Origin: a bacterium | Lineage (GTDB): Bacteria > Armatimonadota > UBA5829 | DNA: 50,477 nucleotides | NCBI GenBank assembly: GCA_021373255.1 | Contig: JAJFTD010000071.1 | Coordinates: 1 to 50,477 of the forward strand | Reading direction: 5' to 3' | Shown: piece by piece, positions 3,167 through 23,214 of the stretch | Numbering within the stretch: position 1 is the stretch's first letter | Layout of the letters: the number at the start of each line of letters is the position of its first letter | Program-made: the position numbers and the translations under genes | Notes under the pieces: model-generated | What the model was told of the DNA's origin: nothing | Seen by the model: only the letters and a program-made list of their open reading frames with translations | Database searches by the model: none

Positions 3167-3182
3167 TGGCACGCAAATTGCT
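3167..3182 (+). promoter_or_regulatory. Sigma-54 (-24/-12) promoter of the flagellar operon
   Basis: TGGCACGcaaaTTGCT matches the sigma-54 consensus TGGCACG-N4-TTGCW at every conserved base with exact spacing. The start of transcription would be near 3193, 23 bases before the TTG start of flgB. This implies that RpoN and an AAA+ enhancer-binding activator, not present in the window, control the cluster. Confidence 0.8.
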
Positions 3183-15222: not shown

Positions 15223-16007
15223 GGAGAAAGAACGGTAAGCAAGAGCACGAGAATCTAGACCGCTGGTTGCTCACATATTCAGATATGATAACGCTGCTGA
15301 TGGCGTTTTTCATAATGATGTACTCGATGTCCGTGCTCAACTTGAGTAAGTTCAGAGAGGCCGCAATTTCGATACGTAGTGGCTTTGGTGGTATGGTCAG
15401 AGGGCAGGGCAGGTCGCCGCTAGGTACTAGCGGTACATTTGGCGCTAAGCCATCATCAATCGAGGGTGATACTGCCGGAGTGTCGTGGCGAGTCATTAAG
15501 CCGCTCGTGGAATATATCGAGACTGCAAATGGCGAGGCGCAAATAGGCGAGGATAAGCGAGGAATCGTGATAACTATACGCAGCGATTCCATGCTTTTCA
15601 AGCCCGGCAGTTCTGAGGTCAGACCAGAGGCTTACCCCTTGTTGGACCGTTTAGCGAAAACTCTGTCGAAGATTGATAATCTTGTGCAGATTGAAGGTCA
15701 TACGTGCGATTTACCACCTAGGTCGTCACGTTACCCAAGTAACTGGGAGCTCTCGACCGCTCGTGCCACGAATGTCCTTCGCTATTTGGTAGAACGCAAG
15801 AAACTCTTCTCGTGGAGGTTTGCGGCTGCGGGCTACGGCAGTGTGCGTCCGATGGCGCCTAACGACTCCGAAGCCGACAGGCGCAAAAACCGTCGAGTCG
15901 AGATAGTTATATTGCGGCCGCAAGCGCCAATGGGGAACATCCCGGACGTAGCGCCCAGGCGGCTTAATGAACCTGGCCAGATTGTATTTCAAAGGAGATT
16001 AGATTAA
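15219..16007 (+). CDS. motB: Flagellar motor stator protein MotB
   Basis: A 262-residue stator subunit that anchors MotA to peptidoglycan. The N-terminal plug and channel helix contain TYSDMITLLMAFFIMMYSMS, with the ion-binding aspartate at residue 22. The C-terminal OmpA-like domain has the peptidoglycan-binding stretch GHTCDLPPRSSRYPSNWELS, followed by RATNVLRYLVE and DRRKNRRVEIVI. In most relatives the first motif reads GHTD, so the extra cysteine (GHTCD) is slightly unusual. The gene overlaps motA by four bases and fliL by one. Confidence 0.94.
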   Translation: MRRKNGKQEHENLDRWLLTYSDMITLLMAFFIMMYSMSVLNLSKFREAAISIRSGFGGMVRGQGRSPLGTSGTFGAKPSSIEGDTAGVSWRVIKPLVEYIETANGEAQIGEDKRGIVITIRSDSMLFKPGSSEVRPEAYPLLDRLAKTLSKIDNLVQIEGHTCDLPPRSSRYPSNWELSTARATNVLRYLVERKKLFSWRFAAAGYGSVRPMAPNDSEADRRKNRRVEIVILRPQAPMGNIPDVAPRRLNEPGQIVFQRRLD

Positions 16008-16447
16008 TGCGACGTAACAGTGGACTGGGAAAGATGGTGCTGATAATTATTCTAGCGGTGGTTGTGCTGCTGGGTGGGATTGGTTTTATGGCGTTTAAGG
16101 GAAAGGCCGGGAAAAAGCACGAGAAAGTAAAACTTCCCACAACAGAGATGACTCTCGGCGAGTTTGTCGTAAACTTGGCTGATACAAATCAGGTAAGATA
16201 TCTCAAGACCATCATAGTAATTGATGTTGAGGGCGCTGTAAAGAGTGAGGGCGGCGAAAAAGAAGCAAGCGCGGACCCGAAGTTGCGTGATGCCGTAATC
16301 GAAGTCTTGAGCAGCAAGTGCTTTTCTGATCTCAATCAGCCCGGTGGTAAAGAGAAACTAAAGAAAGATATAATAACCGCAGTCAACAAACGTTTGGAAG
16401 AAGCGAAAGCTGTTGATGTGTATTTCAGCGAATTTGCCATGCAATAA
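16007..16447 (+). CDS. fliL: Flagellar basal body-associated protein FliL
   Basis: A 146-residue, single-pass inner-membrane protein that rings the stator units and supports their activity. The membrane helix is at about 10-30 (MVLIIILAVVVLLGGIGFMA). The periplasmic domain has LGEFVVNLADTNQVRYLKTI, and ends with KDIITAVNKRLEEAKAVDVY then FSEFAMQ, the normal FliL C-terminus. Start and the motB stop share one base (TAATG). In most clusters fliM follows fliL, but here a 174-base gap with a promoter comes next. Confidence 0.92.
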   Translation: MRRNSGLGKMVLIIILAVVVLLGGIGFMAFKGKAGKKHEKVKLPTTEMTLGEFVVNLADTNQVRYLKTIIVIDVEGAVKSEGGEKEASADPKLRDAVIEVLSSKCFSDLNQPGGKEKLKKDIITAVNKRLEEAKAVDVYFSEFAMQ

Positions 16448-16465
16448 AGCCTGATTCGTTATACC

Positions 16466-16481
16466 TGGTACGGGAATTGCT
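16466..16481 (+). promoter_or_regulatory. Second sigma-54 promoter, upstream of fliN
   Basis: TGGTACGggaaTTGCT differs from the sigma-54 consensus TGGCACG-N4-TTGCW at one base (C to T) and has exact spacing. It would start transcripts near 16492 and drive fliN onward. It sits within the terminator-like structure described next. Confidence 0.65.
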
Positions 16482-16488
16482 ATTATGG

Positions 16489-16555
16489 ACTCCGCGCGGC
16501 GGCGCGCGGCAGCGTTTGATAACGCTCCGCAGCCGAAGCGTGGAGTTTTTGTTTA
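16489..16555 (+). terminator. Branched intrinsic terminator or attenuator before fliN
   Basis: The outer stem ACTCCGCGC (16489-16497) pairs with GCGTGGAGT (16538-16546) using one G-U pair, and is followed by TTTTTGTTT. It encloses a second hairpin AGCGTT/AACGCT (16511-16526) and a GC-rich repeat. The predicted sigma-54 start falls at the base of the 5' arm. Read-through transcripts from fliL would carry the full terminator, while transcripts begun at the internal promoter would lack part of the 5' arm and could escape. Confidence 0.6.
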
Positions 16556-16621
16556 TCTACCCGGTGTCAGGGCAGAACCGACTCAGTAAACTTATAGACT
16601 TCCTGTTGTGGAGGAGTAAAT

Positions 16622-17131
16622 ATGGCAGATGAAGTACTTTCGCAGGCTGAAATAGAGGCCTTGCTTAACCAGCAGGCCGGTGGAGAGGTGGCGGCTGATG
16701 CAAGCGCAAGCGCGGCAGCCGCTGCAGAGCCGCCCCAGGAAACACAGCAGAGCGTACAGACGCCGCAGATCACCTCTGTGCCAAGCCCGGCGCCGAAAGT
16801 TCCCGATGTCGGAGTTCGCCCGGCGGAGTTTGCGCCTGTTGCCTCTGCGGGGGACATCGGCATGCGCCACGGTGTGGACCTTATTTTGGACGTTCAACTC
16901 CAGGTCGCAGTGGAGTTGGGACGAGCCAGCCTGCAGGTTCGCGAGGTGCTCGGGCTCGGACCTGGAAAGGTCGTTGAGCTGGACAAGCACGCAGGTGAGC
17001 CGGTAGAGGTAGTGATTAACAATAAAGTGGTTGCACGAGGTGAGGTAGTTGTCATTGACGAGAACTTTGGCGTGCGTATCACTGAGATTGTTAATGGAAA
17101 TGAGAGAGAGGCCCATGCTAAGGCGGCTTAA
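16622..17131 (+). CDS. fliN: Flagellar motor switch protein FliN with FliM-like N-terminal peptide
   Basis: A 169-residue C-ring protein. The C-terminal ~80 residues are a SpoA/FliN domain: DLILDVQLQVAVELGRASLQ, then VLGLGPGKVVELDKHAGEPV and VVARGEVVVIDENFGVRITE. The N-terminus starts with LSQAEIEALLNQ (residues 6-17), the FliM/FliY-type peptide that binds CheY-P, joined by a ~60-residue Ala/Pro-rich linker. The CheC-like middle domain of FliM or FliY is missing. GGAGG lies seven bases before the ATG. No separate fliM is found in the window, so this protein may carry the CheY-binding role. Confidence 0.92.
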   Translation: MADEVLSQAEIEALLNQQAGGEVAADASASAAAAAEPPQETQQSVQTPQITSVPSPAPKVPDVGVRPAEFAPVASAGDIGMRHGVDLILDVQLQVAVELGRASLQVREVLGLGPGKVVELDKHAGEPVEVVINNKVVARGEVVVIDENFGVRITEIVNGNEREAHAKAA

Positions 17132-17807
17132 CACAGTTGCCATAGCCATGCTCATCGGGGTGATTGTCTTTGCCGGTATCGCGAGTGCGGCCGGTGAGAC
17201 CAAGCACGTCGATAAAGCTGCTTCGGCTTCGACTGGTGCAAAAGTCACCAGTCAACCGGACTATTTGTCCCAATTGGAAGCAGCAGAAAAGGGCCCCACC
17301 CCGGAGACGAAGGAGCCCTCGGTTACGGTGACTGCGCTGAGCTTCATTTTTAAACTTGCGTTGGTCCTGGCGCTGGCCTATGGCACTGTGCTGGGGCTGA
17401 AGAAGTTCACGAGTATGAAGAGTGTCGCTGGACCGGCGGGTGCAAGGATAAGGGTTATCGAGAACTCATCGCTGGGTGCGAACAGGTCGCTGCACATAGT
17501 CGCGGTGGGTTCAAAGAGGTTGCTTGTGGCATCGACTCAGAACCAGATTAACCTGGTCGCGGAACTCGATTCCGAGGATGCGCAGGAGACCACGGTTCAA
17601 ACCAGTACACAGACAGATCAACCGTCGGGTGGATCGAGTGGTGGTTTCAAGGATCAGCTTTCAATGTTCCTTGGCAACAAGCCGGACTCTACTCAGAGCG
17701 CGAAGACTGTTGCAGAAATGCTCAGGGAGTCAAACTCATTTCTTCAGGACAAAGTCAGGGAAGTAGGACACTTCCGAAGGATATTCAGAGATGCCGGCAA
17801 TGGATAA
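17115..17807 (+). CDS. fliO: Flagellar biosynthesis protein FliO/FliZ
   Basis: A 230-residue membrane protein that helps assemble the FliP ring of the export gate. ATG at 17115 is chosen since a signal peptide then begins directly (LRRLNTVAIAMLIGVIVFAG) and GAGAGAGAGG precedes it; it overlaps fliN by 17 bases. A second membrane segment at about residues 80-98 (SFIFKLALVLALAYGTVLGL) is followed by the FliO cytoplasmic domain with IRVIENSSLGANRSLHIVAV and GSKRLLVAST, the conserved core. The C-terminal ~75 residues are Ser/Thr/Gln-rich with a short helix at the end. Confidence 0.88.
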   Translation: MLRRLNTVAIAMLIGVIVFAGIASAAGETKHVDKAASASTGAKVTSQPDYLSQLEAAEKGPTPETKEPSVTVTALSFIFKLALVLALAYGTVLGLKKFTSMKSVAGPAGARIRVIENSSLGANRSLHIVAVGSKRLLVASTQNQINLVAELDSEDAQETTVQTSTQTDQPSGGSSGGFKDQLSMFLGNKPDSTQSAKTVAEMLRESNSFLQDKVREVGHFRRIFRDAGNG

Positions 17808-18564
17808 GTCAAAAATCCTCAAAACAACAGGAATAACGGGGCTGATGCTGCTTATCGCCTGTGCACCGGCATGCGCTCAGAGTGGGATGATGGTCCCGAA
17901 GATCGACATTGGAGTGGGCACAGCACGCAACCCCGAGGAGGTCTCTGCCAGCCTTCAAATTCTGTTTATAATGACGATCCTGTCGCTGGCCCCGGCGCTG
18001 CTGATTATGCTGACATCGTTCACCAGGATCATAATCGTGCTGTCGTTCACGCGGAGCGCGCTGGGTTCGTCCCAGGTTCCGCCGAACACGGTGCTGATCG
18101 GCCTGGCGCTGTTCCTGACGTTTTTCACTATGGCTCCAGTCATCCAGCAGATAAACGGTCATGCGCTGCAGCCGTATATGGAGCACAAGATCACATTCCA
18201 GCAAGCCACCGACAATGCGTCCACGCCGCTGAAAGATTTTATGCTCAGACAGACCAGGGCAAAGGACATCGCATTGTTCGTGAACTTGTCCAAGGGCCCG
18301 CGCCCTAAGACCAAGGACGACCTGCAGATGCACGTCCTGATCCCGGCATTTCTGATCAGCGAACTCAAAACAGCATTCACAATCGGGTTCGTGGTATTTA
18401 TTCCGTTCCTGGTCATAGATATGGTTGTTTCGGTTACGCTGATGTCGATGGGTATGATGATGCTCCCGCCGGTGATGATCTCGCTGCCATTCAAGATATT
18501 GCTTTTCGTGCTCGTAGACGGCTGGCACCTGATAGTGCGGTCGCTTGCAATGAGCTTTCATTAA
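17791..18564 (+). CDS. fliP: Flagellar export gate protein FliP
   Basis: A 257-residue core component of the export gate (FliPQR). A cleavable signal peptide covers residues ~1-29 (LMLLIACAPACAQ). Conserved motifs are present: SLAPALLIMLTSFTRIIIVL, TRSALGSSQVPPNTVLIGLA, and LIPAFLISELKTAFTIGFVV, followed by MLPPVMISLPFKILLFVLVD and GWHLIVRSL. Four membrane segments are expected after the signal. Start at 17791 overlaps fliO by 17 bases; a second ATG is at 17800. Confidence 0.96.
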   Translation: MPAMDKSKILKTTGITGLMLLIACAPACAQSGMMVPKIDIGVGTARNPEEVSASLQILFIMTILSLAPALLIMLTSFTRIIIVLSFTRSALGSSQVPPNTVLIGLALFLTFFTMAPVIQQINGHALQPYMEHKITFQQATDNASTPLKDFMLRQTRAKDIALFVNLSKGPRPKTKDDLQMHVLIPAFLISELKTAFTIGFVVFIPFLVIDMVVSVTLMSMGMMMLPPVMISLPFKILLFVLVDGWHLIVRSLAMSFH

Positions 18565-18565
18565 T

Positions 18566-18608
18566 CCGCATTAATGCCCGCAGCATTCGACTGAGGTGAA
18601 TAATGCGG
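18566..18608 (+). promoter_or_regulatory. 8-bp stem between fliP and fliQ
   Basis: CCGCATTA (18566-18573) and TAATGCGG (18601-18608) form a perfect stem with a 27-base loop, ending three bases before the fliQ ribosome site GAGGAG. No T-run follows. It may tune the ratio of FliP to FliQ. Confidence 0.45.
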
Positions 18609-18622
18609 GTGAGGAGATATAA

Positions 18623-18892
18623 ATGACAGACGCAGGAGTTTTAGATTTAGCTCAGCGCGCTATGATGTTAACGCTGATGATATGCGCCCCCGCGCTGGGG
18701 TTGGGTATGCTGGTCGGCCTGGTTGTGAGTGTTTTTCAAGCCGCCACCCAAATTCAAGAGTCAACACTTACGTTCGTCCCAAAGATTCTAGCCGTGGCAG
18801 TGGCTACTGTTGTTTTCGGCCCATGGATGCTAAGAAGCATGGTCACTTTCACAACTAAACTCCTTGTATCCATCCCAAACTTAGCACATTAA
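18623..18892 (+). CDS. fliQ: Flagellar export gate protein FliQ
   Basis: An 89-residue protein with two membrane helices (about 15-38 and 52-75), the second gate component. Family motifs include GLVVSVFQAATQIQESTLTF and VPKILAVAVATVVFGPWML. The ribosome site GAGGAGATATAA is strong. The stop codon lies in the first copy of a 14-base direct repeat that separates it from fliR. Confidence 0.95.
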   Translation: MTDAGVLDLAQRAMMLTLMICAPALGLGMLVGLVVSVFQAATQIQESTLTFVPKILAVAVATVVFGPWMLRSMVTFTTKLLVSIPNLAH

Positions 18893-18922
18893 CGCACAAC
18901 GCGAAACGCATTAACGCACAAC
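18887..18922. repeat. 14-bp direct repeat between fliQ and fliR
   Basis: CATTAACGCACAAC occurs at 18887-18900 and again at 18909-18922, separated by GCGAAACG, giving a 22-base period. The first copy includes the fliQ stop codon. It looks like a small tandem duplication and leaves fliR without a clear ribosome site. Confidence 0.7.
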
Positions 18923-18926
18923 ACCC

Positions 18927-19703
18927 ATGGACATCCTAGGTTTCGGCATAACCCAAATACTGACTTTCCTTCTCGTGCTTTCACGAGTAGCTGGGATATT
19001 CACGTCCGCCCCGATCTTTGGCAATATGAATGTAGCCAAGCCGGTACGGCTGGCGATAGCTGTTGCGCTGACGCTTGTGTTTTTGCCAATGGCGAAGTAT
19101 AACGCCCCAACGTTCGACTTCCTCCCGTTCGCACTCGCGCTCGTAAAAGAAGCGTTCATAGGAATATTAATGGGTTTCCTGGCCTCGATGATGTTCTCAG
19201 CTATTCAAATGGCGGGGGCGTTCATAGACCTGTCGATGGGTTTTGGTATGGGCCAGATGGTGGACCCGATGACCAAAGAGCACGACGCCGTCATTGGTCA
19301 GCTTCAAAACCTGACTGCCACGATGGTGTTCCTCGCAGTAAACGGTCATCACCTGATGATACGTGGGCTTGCTGAGAGTTTTGCGATACTTCCGCTGGGT
19401 CAGATGTCATTCGGGCAGGATTCTGCAAATAATATCTTGCAGATGTTCGCGGGAATTATGCTCGCTGCTCTGCGTATTGCCGCCCCGGTGGTAGGGGCAA
19501 TCTTCCTCACTGATGTCGCCCTTGGTATTCTTAACCGAACGGTCCCACAGCTAAATGTATTTGTGGTCGGCTTTCCTGTGAAGTTGGCGGTAGGTTTGTT
19601 TGCCACTGTTGCCGTGCTGCCGTTGTCTGTGGTAGTTATGACCAATCTCTTTGGCGGCCTCCACAACGACCTTCTTGTGCTGCTGAAGCACATAAGGATA
19701 TAG
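18927..19703 (+). CDS. fliR: Flagellar export gate protein FliR
   Basis: A 258-residue gate protein with about six membrane segments. Conserved FliR features include FLLVLSRVAGIFTSAPIFGN near the N-terminus, LVKEAFIGILMGFLASMMFS, and GAFIDLSMGFGMGQMVDPMT. The C-terminal region GFPVKLAVGLFATVAVLPL fits the family. No good Shine-Dalgarno site precedes the ATG, which follows the direct repeat, so translation may rely on coupling with fliQ. It ends ten bases before flhB. Confidence 0.94.
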   Translation: MDILGFGITQILTFLLVLSRVAGIFTSAPIFGNMNVAKPVRLAIAVALTLVFLPMAKYNAPTFDFLPFALALVKEAFIGILMGFLASMMFSAIQMAGAFIDLSMGFGMGQMVDPMTKEHDAVIGQLQNLTATMVFLAVNGHHLMIRGLAESFAILPLGQMSFGQDSANNILQMFAGIMLAALRIAAPVVGAIFLTDVALGILNRTVPQLNVFVVGFPVKLAVGLFATVAVLPLSVVVMTNLFGGLHNDLLVLLKHIRI

Positions 19704-19713
19704 GGCAGATCCT

Positions 19714-20775
19714 ATGGCACTGGAGGACCGAACCGAAGCCCCGACGCAACGTAGGCGGCAGGATGCCCGGGAAGAGGGGCGTGTATGCCGAAGCGTTGAA
19801 CTCAACTCCGCAACAATACTGCTCTGCGGGCTGCTTGTGATAAAGTACACAGGACCGATGCTCACGCAGCGGCTCAAGGCCGTTGCAATTGAGTCTCTCG
19901 CACACTTCCCCAGCCACGATTTCAGCATTGCAGAGGCGAATTCTTACCTGGTACGGTTATTGCTACAAGTGGGCCCGGCGATAATGCCACTGTTGCTCGG
20001 AGTGGCGTTAGTTGGGTTTGTATCTAACGTCATTCAGGTAGGATTTGTCTTTTCCACAAAGTCCCTCGCATTCAAAGGCAACAGGCTAAACCCGCTTTCG
20101 GGTATCGCCAGAATGTTCTCAATGCAAGCCGCAGTGGAACTGCTGAAGTCGATAGCAAAGATATCAGTGATCGGCTTCCTTGTATACACGTTTATTCGGA
20201 GTAAATATTCCGAGATAGCCGGTCTTGTTGGTGGAAGCTACTTCACAAGTTGCAGGGTAATTGGTGACCTGACCTGGTCGGTTCTCCTCAGAGCTGCAAC
20301 GGCACTTTTCATAATTGCGGCGCTGGACTATATGTTCCAGCGTTACCAGTTAGAAAAGAGCCTGAAGATGACCAAGCAGGAAGTTAAAGACGATATGAAA
20401 AAGAGCGAGGGCGACCCGATGGTCAAGGGTCGCATCCGCCAGCGCCAGCGTGAGATGAGCCAGCGCAGGATGATGCAGGAAGTGCCCAAGGCCGATGTGG
20501 TGGTTGTAAACCCAACCCATTACGCCGTCGCTCTGAAATATGACCCTGAGCGAAGCCCGGCTCCGATTGTTGTAGCCAAGGGCTGCGACTTCATCGCAAA
20601 GCGTATCAGGGAAATTGCTGAAGAAAACAACGTTCCTATTGTGGAGAACATCCAACTCGCCCGCGCACTGCACGCGTCAGTCGAGATAGGTGATGAAATA
20701 CCCGCCGATCTCTATCACGCGGTGGCAGAGATTCTGGCATATGTCTATAAGCTGAGCAAGAAGCTGGCTGCTTAG
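19714..20775 (+). CDS. flhB: Flagellar export switch protein FlhB
   Basis: A 353-residue export component that changes substrate class from rod/hook to filament. Residues 1-20 have the charged N-terminus (DRTEAPTQRRRQDAREEG), four membrane helices follow, then the conserved cytoplasmic stretch QEVKDDMKKSEGDPMVKGRI and RQRQREMSQRRMM. The autocleavage site NPTH is at residues 266-269 (VVVNPTHYAVALKYD), intact. FIAKRIREIAEENNVPIVEN follows in the C-terminal domain. The gene follows fliR by ten bases with ATCCT-rich spacing and no strong ribosome site. Confidence 0.96.
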   Translation: MALEDRTEAPTQRRRQDAREEGRVCRSVELNSATILLCGLLVIKYTGPMLTQRLKAVAIESLAHFPSHDFSIAEANSYLVRLLLQVGPAIMPLLLGVALVGFVSNVIQVGFVFSTKSLAFKGNRLNPLSGIARMFSMQAAVELLKSIAKISVIGFLVYTFIRSKYSEIAGLVGGSYFTSCRVIGDLTWSVLLRAATALFIIAALDYMFQRYQLEKSLKMTKQEVKDDMKKSEGDPMVKGRIRQRQREMSQRRMMQEVPKADVVVVNPTHYAVALKYDPERSPAPIVVAKGCDFIAKRIREIAEENNVPIVENIQLARALHASVEIGDEIPADLYHAVAEILAYVYKLSKKLAA

Positions 20776-21117
20776 TTTCGATGTAGCAGAAGCGTCACAA
20801 GGTTAAAAGTCATAAGGTCAAAAGGTTGGGAAGGGAAAGGTTCGGGCAGATCTTTGATCTGCGCCGAAAGGGACAAGATGGGATCTCCTGATCCCACCAC
20901 CTATTGGTGCCATATATTTATTGCATACCATCTGCAAATTTCTATTGGTGTGGCCTTAGCTAATAAGCGTTACGTGGTGGCATCGGAGATGCCAATTGGT
21001 CAATGCGGGCCACATCAGAGATGTGCCCGAACATTGTTAGTCCCTTTTCGTGCTTTCGCTCCTTCGCGATTAAGGAGCCTTTCCGAATTGCACATACTAG
21101 CCGGAGATTGCTGAATA
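20776..21117. repeat. Intergenic hairpin array between flhB and flhA
   Basis: This 342-base gap holds no convincing gene. It starts with two 15-base near-copies (GTCACAAGGTTAAAA at 20794, GTCATAAGGTCAAAA at 20809). Four hairpins follow: 20846-20862 (GCAGATC/GATCTGC), 20879-20896 (TGGGATC/GATCCCA), 20978-20994 (TGGCATC/GATGCCA) and 21007-21028 (GGGcCACATC/GATGTGCCC). All have ATC on the 5' and GAT on the 3' side of a 3-4 base loop. The right end (21043-21080) is the inverted head of the dispersed repeat family (TTAATCGCGAAGGAGCGAAA on the minus strand). A short 86-codon open frame over it has no protein-like character. Confidence 0.8.
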
Positions 21118-23214
21118 ATGTCAGTTATAACTGCACAAAAGGATAAATCCTCCCCACTCGGGGCGATTGCGCGCTACAGCGATATTGTGATCGCGGGCGC
21201 GGCGGTTGTGATCGTCGGTATGATGATCCTGCCACTTCCGCACTGGGTATTGGATATCCTACTGTGCGGCAACATTGCTCTGGCGCTTTGTATCCTGCTG
21301 GTGTCGATGTATACATCGGCTCCGCTGGAGTTCAGCTCATTTCCGTCACTGCTCCTTATGACCACGCTGTTCCGGCTCTCGCTCAACATTTCCGCCACCA
21401 GGCTTATCCTTTTGCATGGCGATGCGGGCTCGGTGATCTCCGCATTCGGATCGGTGGTTGTGGGAGGCAACTATGTAGTTGGTATAGTCGTCTTCATAAT
21501 CCTGGTCATTATTCAGTTCGTTGTTATCACCAACGGCGCAGGGCGTGTCGCTGAAGTTGCCGCAAGGTTCACGTTGGATGCTATGCCCGGTAAGCAGATG
21601 GCTATAGACGCTGATCTCAACGCAGGCATAATCGACGAGAAAGAAGCCCAGACACGTAGAAAAAATGTTGCCCGTGAAGCCGATTTTTACGGGGCTATGG
21701 ATGGTGCTACCAAGTTTGTCCGTGGCGATGCTATCGCCGCTATTATTATGATCATCATCAACGTCCTTGGTGGGTTTGCCGTAGGTATTGCGCAGCGAGG
21801 ACTGGACATTATGCAGGCGCTGCAGACCTATACGCTCCTGACTGTTGGTGAAGGATTGGTCACCCAGATCCCCGCGCTGCTGATCTCCACCGCTACCGGT
21901 TTGATGGTCACTAAGAACGGCTCCGAGAAGAGCCTTGGCCTTGAGCTAATGAGCCAGGTCTTCTCACGACCGAAAGCTATCGGTATCACTGCGGCTGTGT
22001 TCGGTGTGTTAGTAATTGTGCCCGGAATGCCGAAAGTCCCGCTCAGCCTAGCTGCTCTACTGGCTGGGTTGATTGCGTATTTCCTGGCTCAAAACGAGAA
22101 GCAGATAGCTGTAAGTGCAGCTAAAGCCAAAGCCGCACCGGCGCAGGCCGCGCCCGCCGCACCGGAGCAAATGACCGATCTGATAGGTGTGGACCCACTG
22201 GCCCTGGAAGTCGGCTATGGCCTGATTCCAATGGCAGATCCAAAGCAGGGCGGCGAGCTACTGGACAGGATCACAATGGTTCGCAGACAATCCGTTATCG
22301 ACATGGGCATGCTCGTCCCTGCAATCAGGGTTCGCGACAATGTCCAGCTTAGTCCCAACGAATACGTGCTCAAGCTGAGGGGTATAGATGTCGCACGTGG
22401 GGAAGTATTCCCCGGCCAATTCCTGGCCATGAATCCCGGTGGAGCTTCGGAGAAGCTCACCGGCACAGAAACCGTGGAGCCTGCTTTTGGTCTCCCGGCC
22501 ACGTGGATCAGTGAATCTCAGAAGATGTTTGCCGAGATTGCCGGGTATACGGTTGTGGACCCGACCACGGTCCTGATCACGCACCTGAGCGAACTCGTCC
22601 GCAGGCACGCTGCCGAGCTGCTCACACGCCAGGAGACGCAGCAGTTGGTCGATGCCGCCAAGGAAGAGGCGCCGACTGTGGTAAACGAGCTCATACCGGA
22701 AGTTATGGGCATCGGCGATATACAAAAAGTCCTGCAGAACCTGCTCTCGGAGCGGGTGTCGGTCAGGGACATAGTTGTAGTGCTGGAATCGTTGGCAGAC
22801 TTCGCCGGAGCCACCAAAGATACTGACGTTCTCACGGAGTATGTAAGGCAGCGTCTCGCGCTCGCTATCTGCCGCCAGCACCAGGGGCCGGACGGCAAAC
22901 TAACGGTATTTTCGTTCCATCCAACGGTGGAGCAGATCATTACAGATAACATTCGCCAGACCGAATTGGGAGGAAGATTGATTTTAGACCCCGGCCTGGT
23001 ACAGGAATTGCTAAAAGCCATTCGCGACGAGATGGAAAAGCTCTCGCAGCGGGGTTTTGCTCCCATCGCGCTGTGCTCGCCCAGGACAAGGCTGCACATC
23101 CGCAGGTTGGTGGAACAAAACTTCCCGAACCTCACAGTGATCTCCTATGCAGAGATTGCTCCCGAGGTAGATATCGAATCCATAGGAATGGTGAAGATCA
23201 ACAATGCGAATTAA
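21118..23214 (+). CDS. flhA: Flagellar export protein FlhA
   Basis: A 698-residue export gate protein. The N-terminal ~310 residues have eight membrane segments and include SLLLMTTLFRLSLNISATRL, and the cytoplasmic FHIPEP-type loop DAMPGKQMAIDADLNAGIID with RRKNVAREADFYGAMDGATK. The C-terminal cytoplasmic domain (from ~340) receives chaperone-substrate complexes; LTHLSELVRRHAAELLTRQE and RLALAICRQHQGPDGKLTVF are typical. The start follows the hairpin array with GGAGA twelve bases upstream. Its end overlaps flhF by 11 bases. Confidence 0.97.
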   Translation: MSVITAQKDKSSPLGAIARYSDIVIAGAAVVIVGMMILPLPHWVLDILLCGNIALALCILLVSMYTSAPLEFSSFPSLLLMTTLFRLSLNISATRLILLHGDAGSVISAFGSVVVGGNYVVGIVVFIILVIIQFVVITNGAGRVAEVAARFTLDAMPGKQMAIDADLNAGIIDEKEAQTRRKNVAREADFYGAMDGATKFVRGDAIAAIIMIIINVLGGFAVGIAQRGLDIMQALQTYTLLTVGEGLVTQIPALLISTATGLMVTKNGSEKSLGLELMSQVFSRPKAIGITAAVFGVLVIVPGMPKVPLSLAALLAGLIAYFLAQNEKQIAVSAAKAKAAPAQAAPAAPEQMTDLIGVDPLALEVGYGLIPMADPKQGGELLDRITMVRRQSVIDMGMLVPAIRVRDNVQLSPNEYVLKLRGIDVARGEVFPGQFLAMNPGGASEKLTGTETVEPAFGLPATWISESQKMFAEIAGYTVVDPTTVLITHLSELVRRHAAELLTRQETQQLVDAAKEEAPTVVNELIPEVMGIGDIQKVLQNLLSERVSVRDIVVVLESLADFAGATKDTDVLTEYVRQRLALAICRQHQGPDGKLTVFSFHPTVEQIITDNIRQTELGGRLILDPGLVQELLKAIRDEMEKLSQRGFAPIALCSPRTRLHIRRLVEQNFPNLTVISYAEIAPEVDIESIGMVKINNAN

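Follow-up and report, generated by a model that had tools for sequence, protein, structure and literature searches.

The fliL-fliN junction of this flagellar cluster raises the question of whether a promoter and a transcription terminator can be laid over one another, and what such an overlap would do for the genes on either side. An earlier, sequence-only reading had described a 174-base gap after fliL that holds a sigma-54 promoter nested in a terminator, and had proposed it as a device that uncouples the fliN-flhB block from the upstream genes. Here the gap was examined in the window (the whole stretch of 50,477 nt that was analysed) and in related genomes, which are given below as G numbers, the source genome being G000. 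The 174-base gap proved genuine: it runs from 16448 to 16621 between two genes identified by their domains. Its features and those of its flanks are as follows.

16007-16447, plus strand: fliL (PF03748).
16466-16481, plus strand: putative sigma-54 -24/-12 promoter site TGGTACGGGAATTGCT, of the flagellar flavour, with T at -11.
16487-16548, plus strand: unbranched hairpin with internal loops, resembling an intrinsic terminator (-43.7 kcal/mol).
16490-16494, plus strand: predicted transcription start zone; 16492 follows from a 12-nt spacing after the C of the -12 element.
16546-16554, plus strand: T-run TTTTTGTTT, seen in the sequence 3' of the hairpin.
16610-16616, plus strand: Shine-Dalgarno-like sequence GGAGGAG 5' of fliN.
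16622-17131, plus strand: fliN (FliMN_C domain, PF01052), which opens the downstream block.
16622-20775, plus strand: fliN-fliO-fliP-fliQ-fliR-flhB block, the presumed target of the gap promoter, with predicted unit boundaries.

The gap site reads TGGTACG-N4-TTGCT; its -24 GG and -12 GC elements are correctly spaced and, as had been reported, a single mismatch separates it from TGGCACG-N4-TTGCW. With the plain sigma-54 consensus and two mismatches allowed, the number of sites in the window was not above chance (13 found, 10.45 expected), so that the case depends on closer matches. TGGYACRN4TTGCW, a strict pattern, has 14 matches across the 4.19 Mb of the genome, whereas its reversed-pattern control has 2; the 50 kb of the window contain 4 of the 14. 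A matrix was then derived from flagellar sites of relatives (22 16-mers; the window's own genome contributed none): 21 were selected by the analyst among 34 plus-strand matches (7 weaker matches were omitted, as were 6 that repeated an identical site), and one further site was added. With this matrix four sites of the window score 25.0, 24.3, 23.4 and 23.0, the next best position on either strand reaching 13.8; the gap site, at 24.3, is surpassed only by the site before flgB. Among 40 sequences of 101 kb generated at random by a Markov-1 model, the best score had a mean of 13.8 and one sequence reached 24.7. Because of that one sequence, a lone site with such a score could be due to chance, in a few per cent of windows; chance is not a reasonable account of four such sites, all on the gene strand.

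The cluster has the following sigma-54 sites outside the gap.

3167-3182, plus strand: site 5' of flgB, kept in G001, G003, G004 and G006.
19949-19964, plus strand: site inside flhB, with codon-level conservation over 7 genomes.
22997-23012, plus strand: site inside flhA, about 190 nt 5' of flhF, with codon-level conservation over 6 genomes.

Sites of this kind are found in relatives 5' of flgB, at flgD/flgE, between fliP and fliQ, and within flhB and flhA. The two intragenic sites are held at the DNA level: the fraction of identical codons among same-residue pairs has a mean of 0.43 over flhB, and likewise over flhA, while it is 0.85 for the six codons of the flhB site (rank 2 of 348, the first, with 0.94, being the one that begins one codon upstream) and 0.93 for the codons of the flhA site (rank 1 of 682). 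In the flhB of G007 a residue has changed from V to A, yet the form of the sigma-54 site is kept.

Concerning the sigma-54 that could read these sites, the source genome possesses two rpoN genes, at G000:C30 (L204) and G000:C61 (L036), which belong to separate clades and have the RpoN boxes ARRTVAKYR (b) and ARRTVVKYR (a). In a tree of 51 rpoN sequences the b clade (n = 16, support 100/99) was found in flagellated genomes. Within the family, two rpoN genes are present in each of the 11 genomes that carry fliN, and none of the 4 genomes without fliN has one above the cut-off. Beyond the family, fliN occurs with a single rpoN, of clade a, in G019 and G021, which argues against a simple two-rpoN rule; near their fliN no strict site was present among the sites listed. 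In G025, which is 69% complete, fliN is present and no rpoN was found. The gene for RpoN-b shares the fliN contig in G015, G022, G026 and G027. In G016, for which no fliN was found, its neighbours are an NtrC-type activator on one side and flgB-flgC on the other; sites TGGCACGCAAATTGCT precede both rpoN-b and flgB. In these five genomes rpoN is within the flagellar locus, unlike in the source genome, where rpoN-b is not beside flagellar genes and where no sigma-54 site was seen in the stretches examined around fliM and rpoN-b. Two strong Sigma54_activat matches are present in the source genome, one 58% and the other 48% identical to the G016 activator adjoining rpoN-b.

In Rhodobacter (Cereibacter) sphaeroides, position -11 helps to tell the promoters of rpoN paralogues apart. 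Here, the last base of flagellar sites, at -11, is T, and that of other sigma-54 sites is mostly A. Strict sites listed for seven genomes (G000, G005, G006, G007, G010, G011 and G015) were counted by hand before the test, a tally that excludes one G005 site and all of G001-G004: all 18 sites on fliN contigs have T, compared with 14 of the 66 on the remaining contigs of these genomes (Fisher p = 5e-10), and 5 of these 14 are in G010, whose flagellar genes may span contigs. In the single-rpoN genomes G017-G021, 5 of the 62 strict sites listed end in T. The b clade would then be a putative flagellum-dedicated sigma-54 that has a promoter flavour to itself. Since this second clade is present in the flagellated members of the family and the gap site has T at -11, the latter is probably a promoter of the dedicated sigma-54.

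The other half of the overlap, the hairpin with its T-run, is also present, although it had been described as branched and is in fact one stem with internal loops. It ranks first among the 65 TTTTT tracts of the window (the next has -31.7 kcal/mol), and the fold of the gap has a z of -4.2 against shuffled sequences. The hairpin is stable and GC-rich and the T-run comes directly after it, as expected of an intrinsic terminator. It was not reported by a simple terminator scan of the window, a method that requires an uninterrupted stem and a loop of 3-8. The possibility of a riboswitch or another known RNA was considered and rejected: Rfam gave nothing at gathering score on the window, and the gap alone gave Bacteroides-1 at 15.2 bits, against a cut-off of 43, which we took as chance.

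The predicted start, about 16492 by the usual 12-nt spacing, falls within the 5' arm of the hairpin, as the earlier reading had placed it. Read-through RNA would form the hairpin in full. An RNA started at 16492 would miss about 5 nt of this arm; its predicted fold has -36.6 kcal/mol, against -43.7 for the whole, and leaves 2 nt between stem and T-run. With starts from 16490 to 16494 the energy goes from -40.6 to -31.0 kcal/mol. RNA started at 16492 would stay terminator-like, so that termination may occur there too, and almost nothing of the terminator would be missing with a start at 16490. A local RNA that terminated as well would make the promoter useless for fliN.

Of the proposed uncoupling device, the site, the terminator-like hairpin and the predicted start in the 5' arm are all supported, but the part of the stem lost by the local RNA is just these 5 nt or so. 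Because the local RNA keeps so much of its stability, uncoupling would need the few base pairs beside the T-run to be decisive. Base pairs adjoining the T-run weigh most for termination, and for this reason the local RNA may escape in part. The device may then exist in a weaker, graded form than first proposed; a clean uncoupling of the fliN-flhB block from the upstream genes is no more than possible.

The reading we favour, with a confidence that stops somewhat short of even, is that the gap is a lineage-specific boundary between transcription units, made of a flagellum-dedicated sigma-54 promoter and a terminator that the local RNA partly escapes, in a flagellar supercluster run by that sigma-54. 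The site at 16466 would be the promoter for the fliN-fliO-fliP-fliQ-fliR-flhB block, putatively recognised by RpoN-b with its NtrC-type activator. Hairpin and T-run would stop most transcripts coming from the flgB-fliL side, and RNA begun at about 16492 would start inside the hairpin, without the base pairs closest to the T-run. Termination of this RNA should thus be less efficient, and part of it would continue into fliN with the remaining hairpin as a structured 5' end. It is conceivable, though we find it doubtful, that the terminator is gated by the start itself, in that the hairpin would stop upstream polymerases and let pass those that the flagellar sigma-54 starts within the hairpin's own 5' arm, how many depending on the precise start base; only the dedicated sigma-54 would then switch the fliN-flhB export block. 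Such a nesting of promoter in terminator, if real, would amount to a minimal insulator built from two ordinary parts. The dedicated sigma-54 and the conserved intragenic promoters are better supported than the nested device, and provide something more solid, namely a testable flagellum-dedicated sigma-54 with its own flavour (T at -11) and promoters kept inside coding genes; relatives with and without the second sigma-54 are natural controls.

Conservation in relatives, which had been suggested as a check, was not observed for the overlap, which is seen only in the source genome. The fliL-fliN junction is short and free of sites in all ten other fliN-bearing members of the family, where the best matrix score does not exceed 5.9. 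Its length was measured in seven of them (17-79 nt), the other three being inspected in a separate comparison, and the junction of the source genome is about 95-155 nt longer. The gap had also been called the usual place of fliM, a description that finds no support in the family, since in the ten fliN-bearing relatives fliN directly follows fliL. A fliM lost from the gap was ruled out: the gene is on contig C143, and the relatives are also without fliM here. Upstream of FliN, a scan of 30 loci found a site only in the source genome and in G022, and in the latter no hairpin with T-run is present. At the other 31 flagellar sites scanned there is no comparable downstream hairpin, the strongest having -21.7 kcal/mol against -43.4 here. 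We also searched 61 genomes for a sigma-54 site with TTTTT 45-75 nt downstream. Matches were found in 16 genomes and were judged by eye, not each folded; no other nested device was seen among them, the rest being units resembling small RNAs and chance-looking T-runs, and about two (G032, G025) do show a hairpin. A scan of the genome contigs with FliP retained 80 distant loci, among which no near relative could be recognised; 2 of the 80 contain any strict site. No earlier description of a promoter overlapping a terminator in this way was found in the literature searched, which does not prove that none exists.

A related arrangement was observed a few genes away. G001-G004 carry a sigma-54 site between fliP and fliQ; the source genome is without it, and the gap promoter may therefore be its replacement. 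A hairpin precedes the fliP-fliQ site in G003 and G004, and none does in G001 and G002; the combination of boundary and promoter thus appears to recur nearby, in the fliP-fliQ gap of G003 and G004.

Two other explanations are the main rivals of the boundary reading. According to the first, the gap is a short-RNA gene or an attenuator, with a start at about 16492 and an end at the T-run some 60 nt on, fliN being mostly supplied by other transcripts or by regulated read-through. This agrees with the stability that the local hairpin still has beside the T-run (-36.6 kcal/mol), and in the source genome each of three tandem sigma-54 sites is followed by a unit with a hairpin and T-run at its end, so that terminated sigma-54 transcripts are likely there. 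However, the sRNA-like units have an A-type site (at -11) and a CTCCTTC core, whereas the gap site is T-type and no core follows it, and intergenic flagellar sites of relatives otherwise stand shortly 5' of genes; we consider this explanation unlikely. According to the second, the hairpin is mainly a stabiliser of the 5' end of the fliN mRNA (and of the 3' end of the upstream mRNA) and causes little termination. A 5' protective stem classically has its first base paired, as the predicted fold gives for RNA started at 16492; but a T-run right at the end of the stem, together with the first rank among the TTTTT tracts, suits a terminator better, and we regard this explanation as improbable.

It could also be argued that the hairpin is a plain terminator of the flgB-fliL unit, and that the promoter is fortuitous or decayed and the overlap functionless. 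Its occurrence in the source genome only would fit, but the matrix score, second only to that of the flgB site, and the correct strand speak for a real site, and without a fliP-fliQ site the block would otherwise have no entry of its own, which makes this explanation distinctly improbable. The insertion of a mobile repeat that happened to bring both parts would account for the extra length of the junction, but it is hardly credible, as the gap is single copy and its other matches in the own genome are of 25 nt or less, with E values of 0.6 or worse.

The boundary with partial escape can be compared with known systems. In the pyrC and pyrD leaders of enteric bacteria a 5' hairpin forms or fails to form depending on the exact base at which transcription starts; this hairpin blocks translation, under sigma-70, whereas the hairpin of the gap would tune termination under sigma-54. 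At an ordinary terminator-then-promoter junction one unit is closed and another opened, as appears to be the case for the fliP-fliQ gap of G004; in the fliL-fliN gap, by contrast, the order is inverted and promoter and terminator overlap. Sigma-54 sites inside genes are also known from Escherichia coli, where, in PMC4591121, intragenic sigma-54 promoters are described as sense-enriched, many as conserved between species and some as driving the next gene. Unlike these, the two intragenic sites reported here recur in flhB and flhA of one cluster and are under top codon constraint. As for the dedicated sigma-54, PMC7277832 and PMC12316311 present RpoN2 of R. sphaeroides as one of several rpoN, located in the flagellar locus, and as alone responsible for flagellar genes. 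The b clade is a candidate for a similar flagellar sigma-54 paralogue, but its linkage to flagellar genes is seen in other families and not in the source genome.

Other gaps of these clusters have features of their own. The flhB-flhA gap of the window (20776-21117, 342 nt) is rich in inverted repeats and exceeds the length measured in relatives. The fliQ-fliR gap of G005 (L134) is long and has runs of AAAGCGG/GAGAGTGG-like repeats, with a CGGGATTT inverted repeat before the sigma-54 site at fliR.

Apparent sigma-54-driven small RNAs were observed at G000:C19:1074-1634 (L139), and members of the same sRNA-like family in G011, G015, G019-G023, G025 and G026. No Rfam match was obtained for the family in the 7 loci tested. 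A unit consists of a TGGCACRN4TTGCA site followed by a TTCTCCTTC core, which is complementary to ribosome-binding sites; units are often in tandem, and those read have a hairpin with T-run. The pattern gave 19 matches in 10 of the 61 genomes, all within the class of the window, against 0 for the control.
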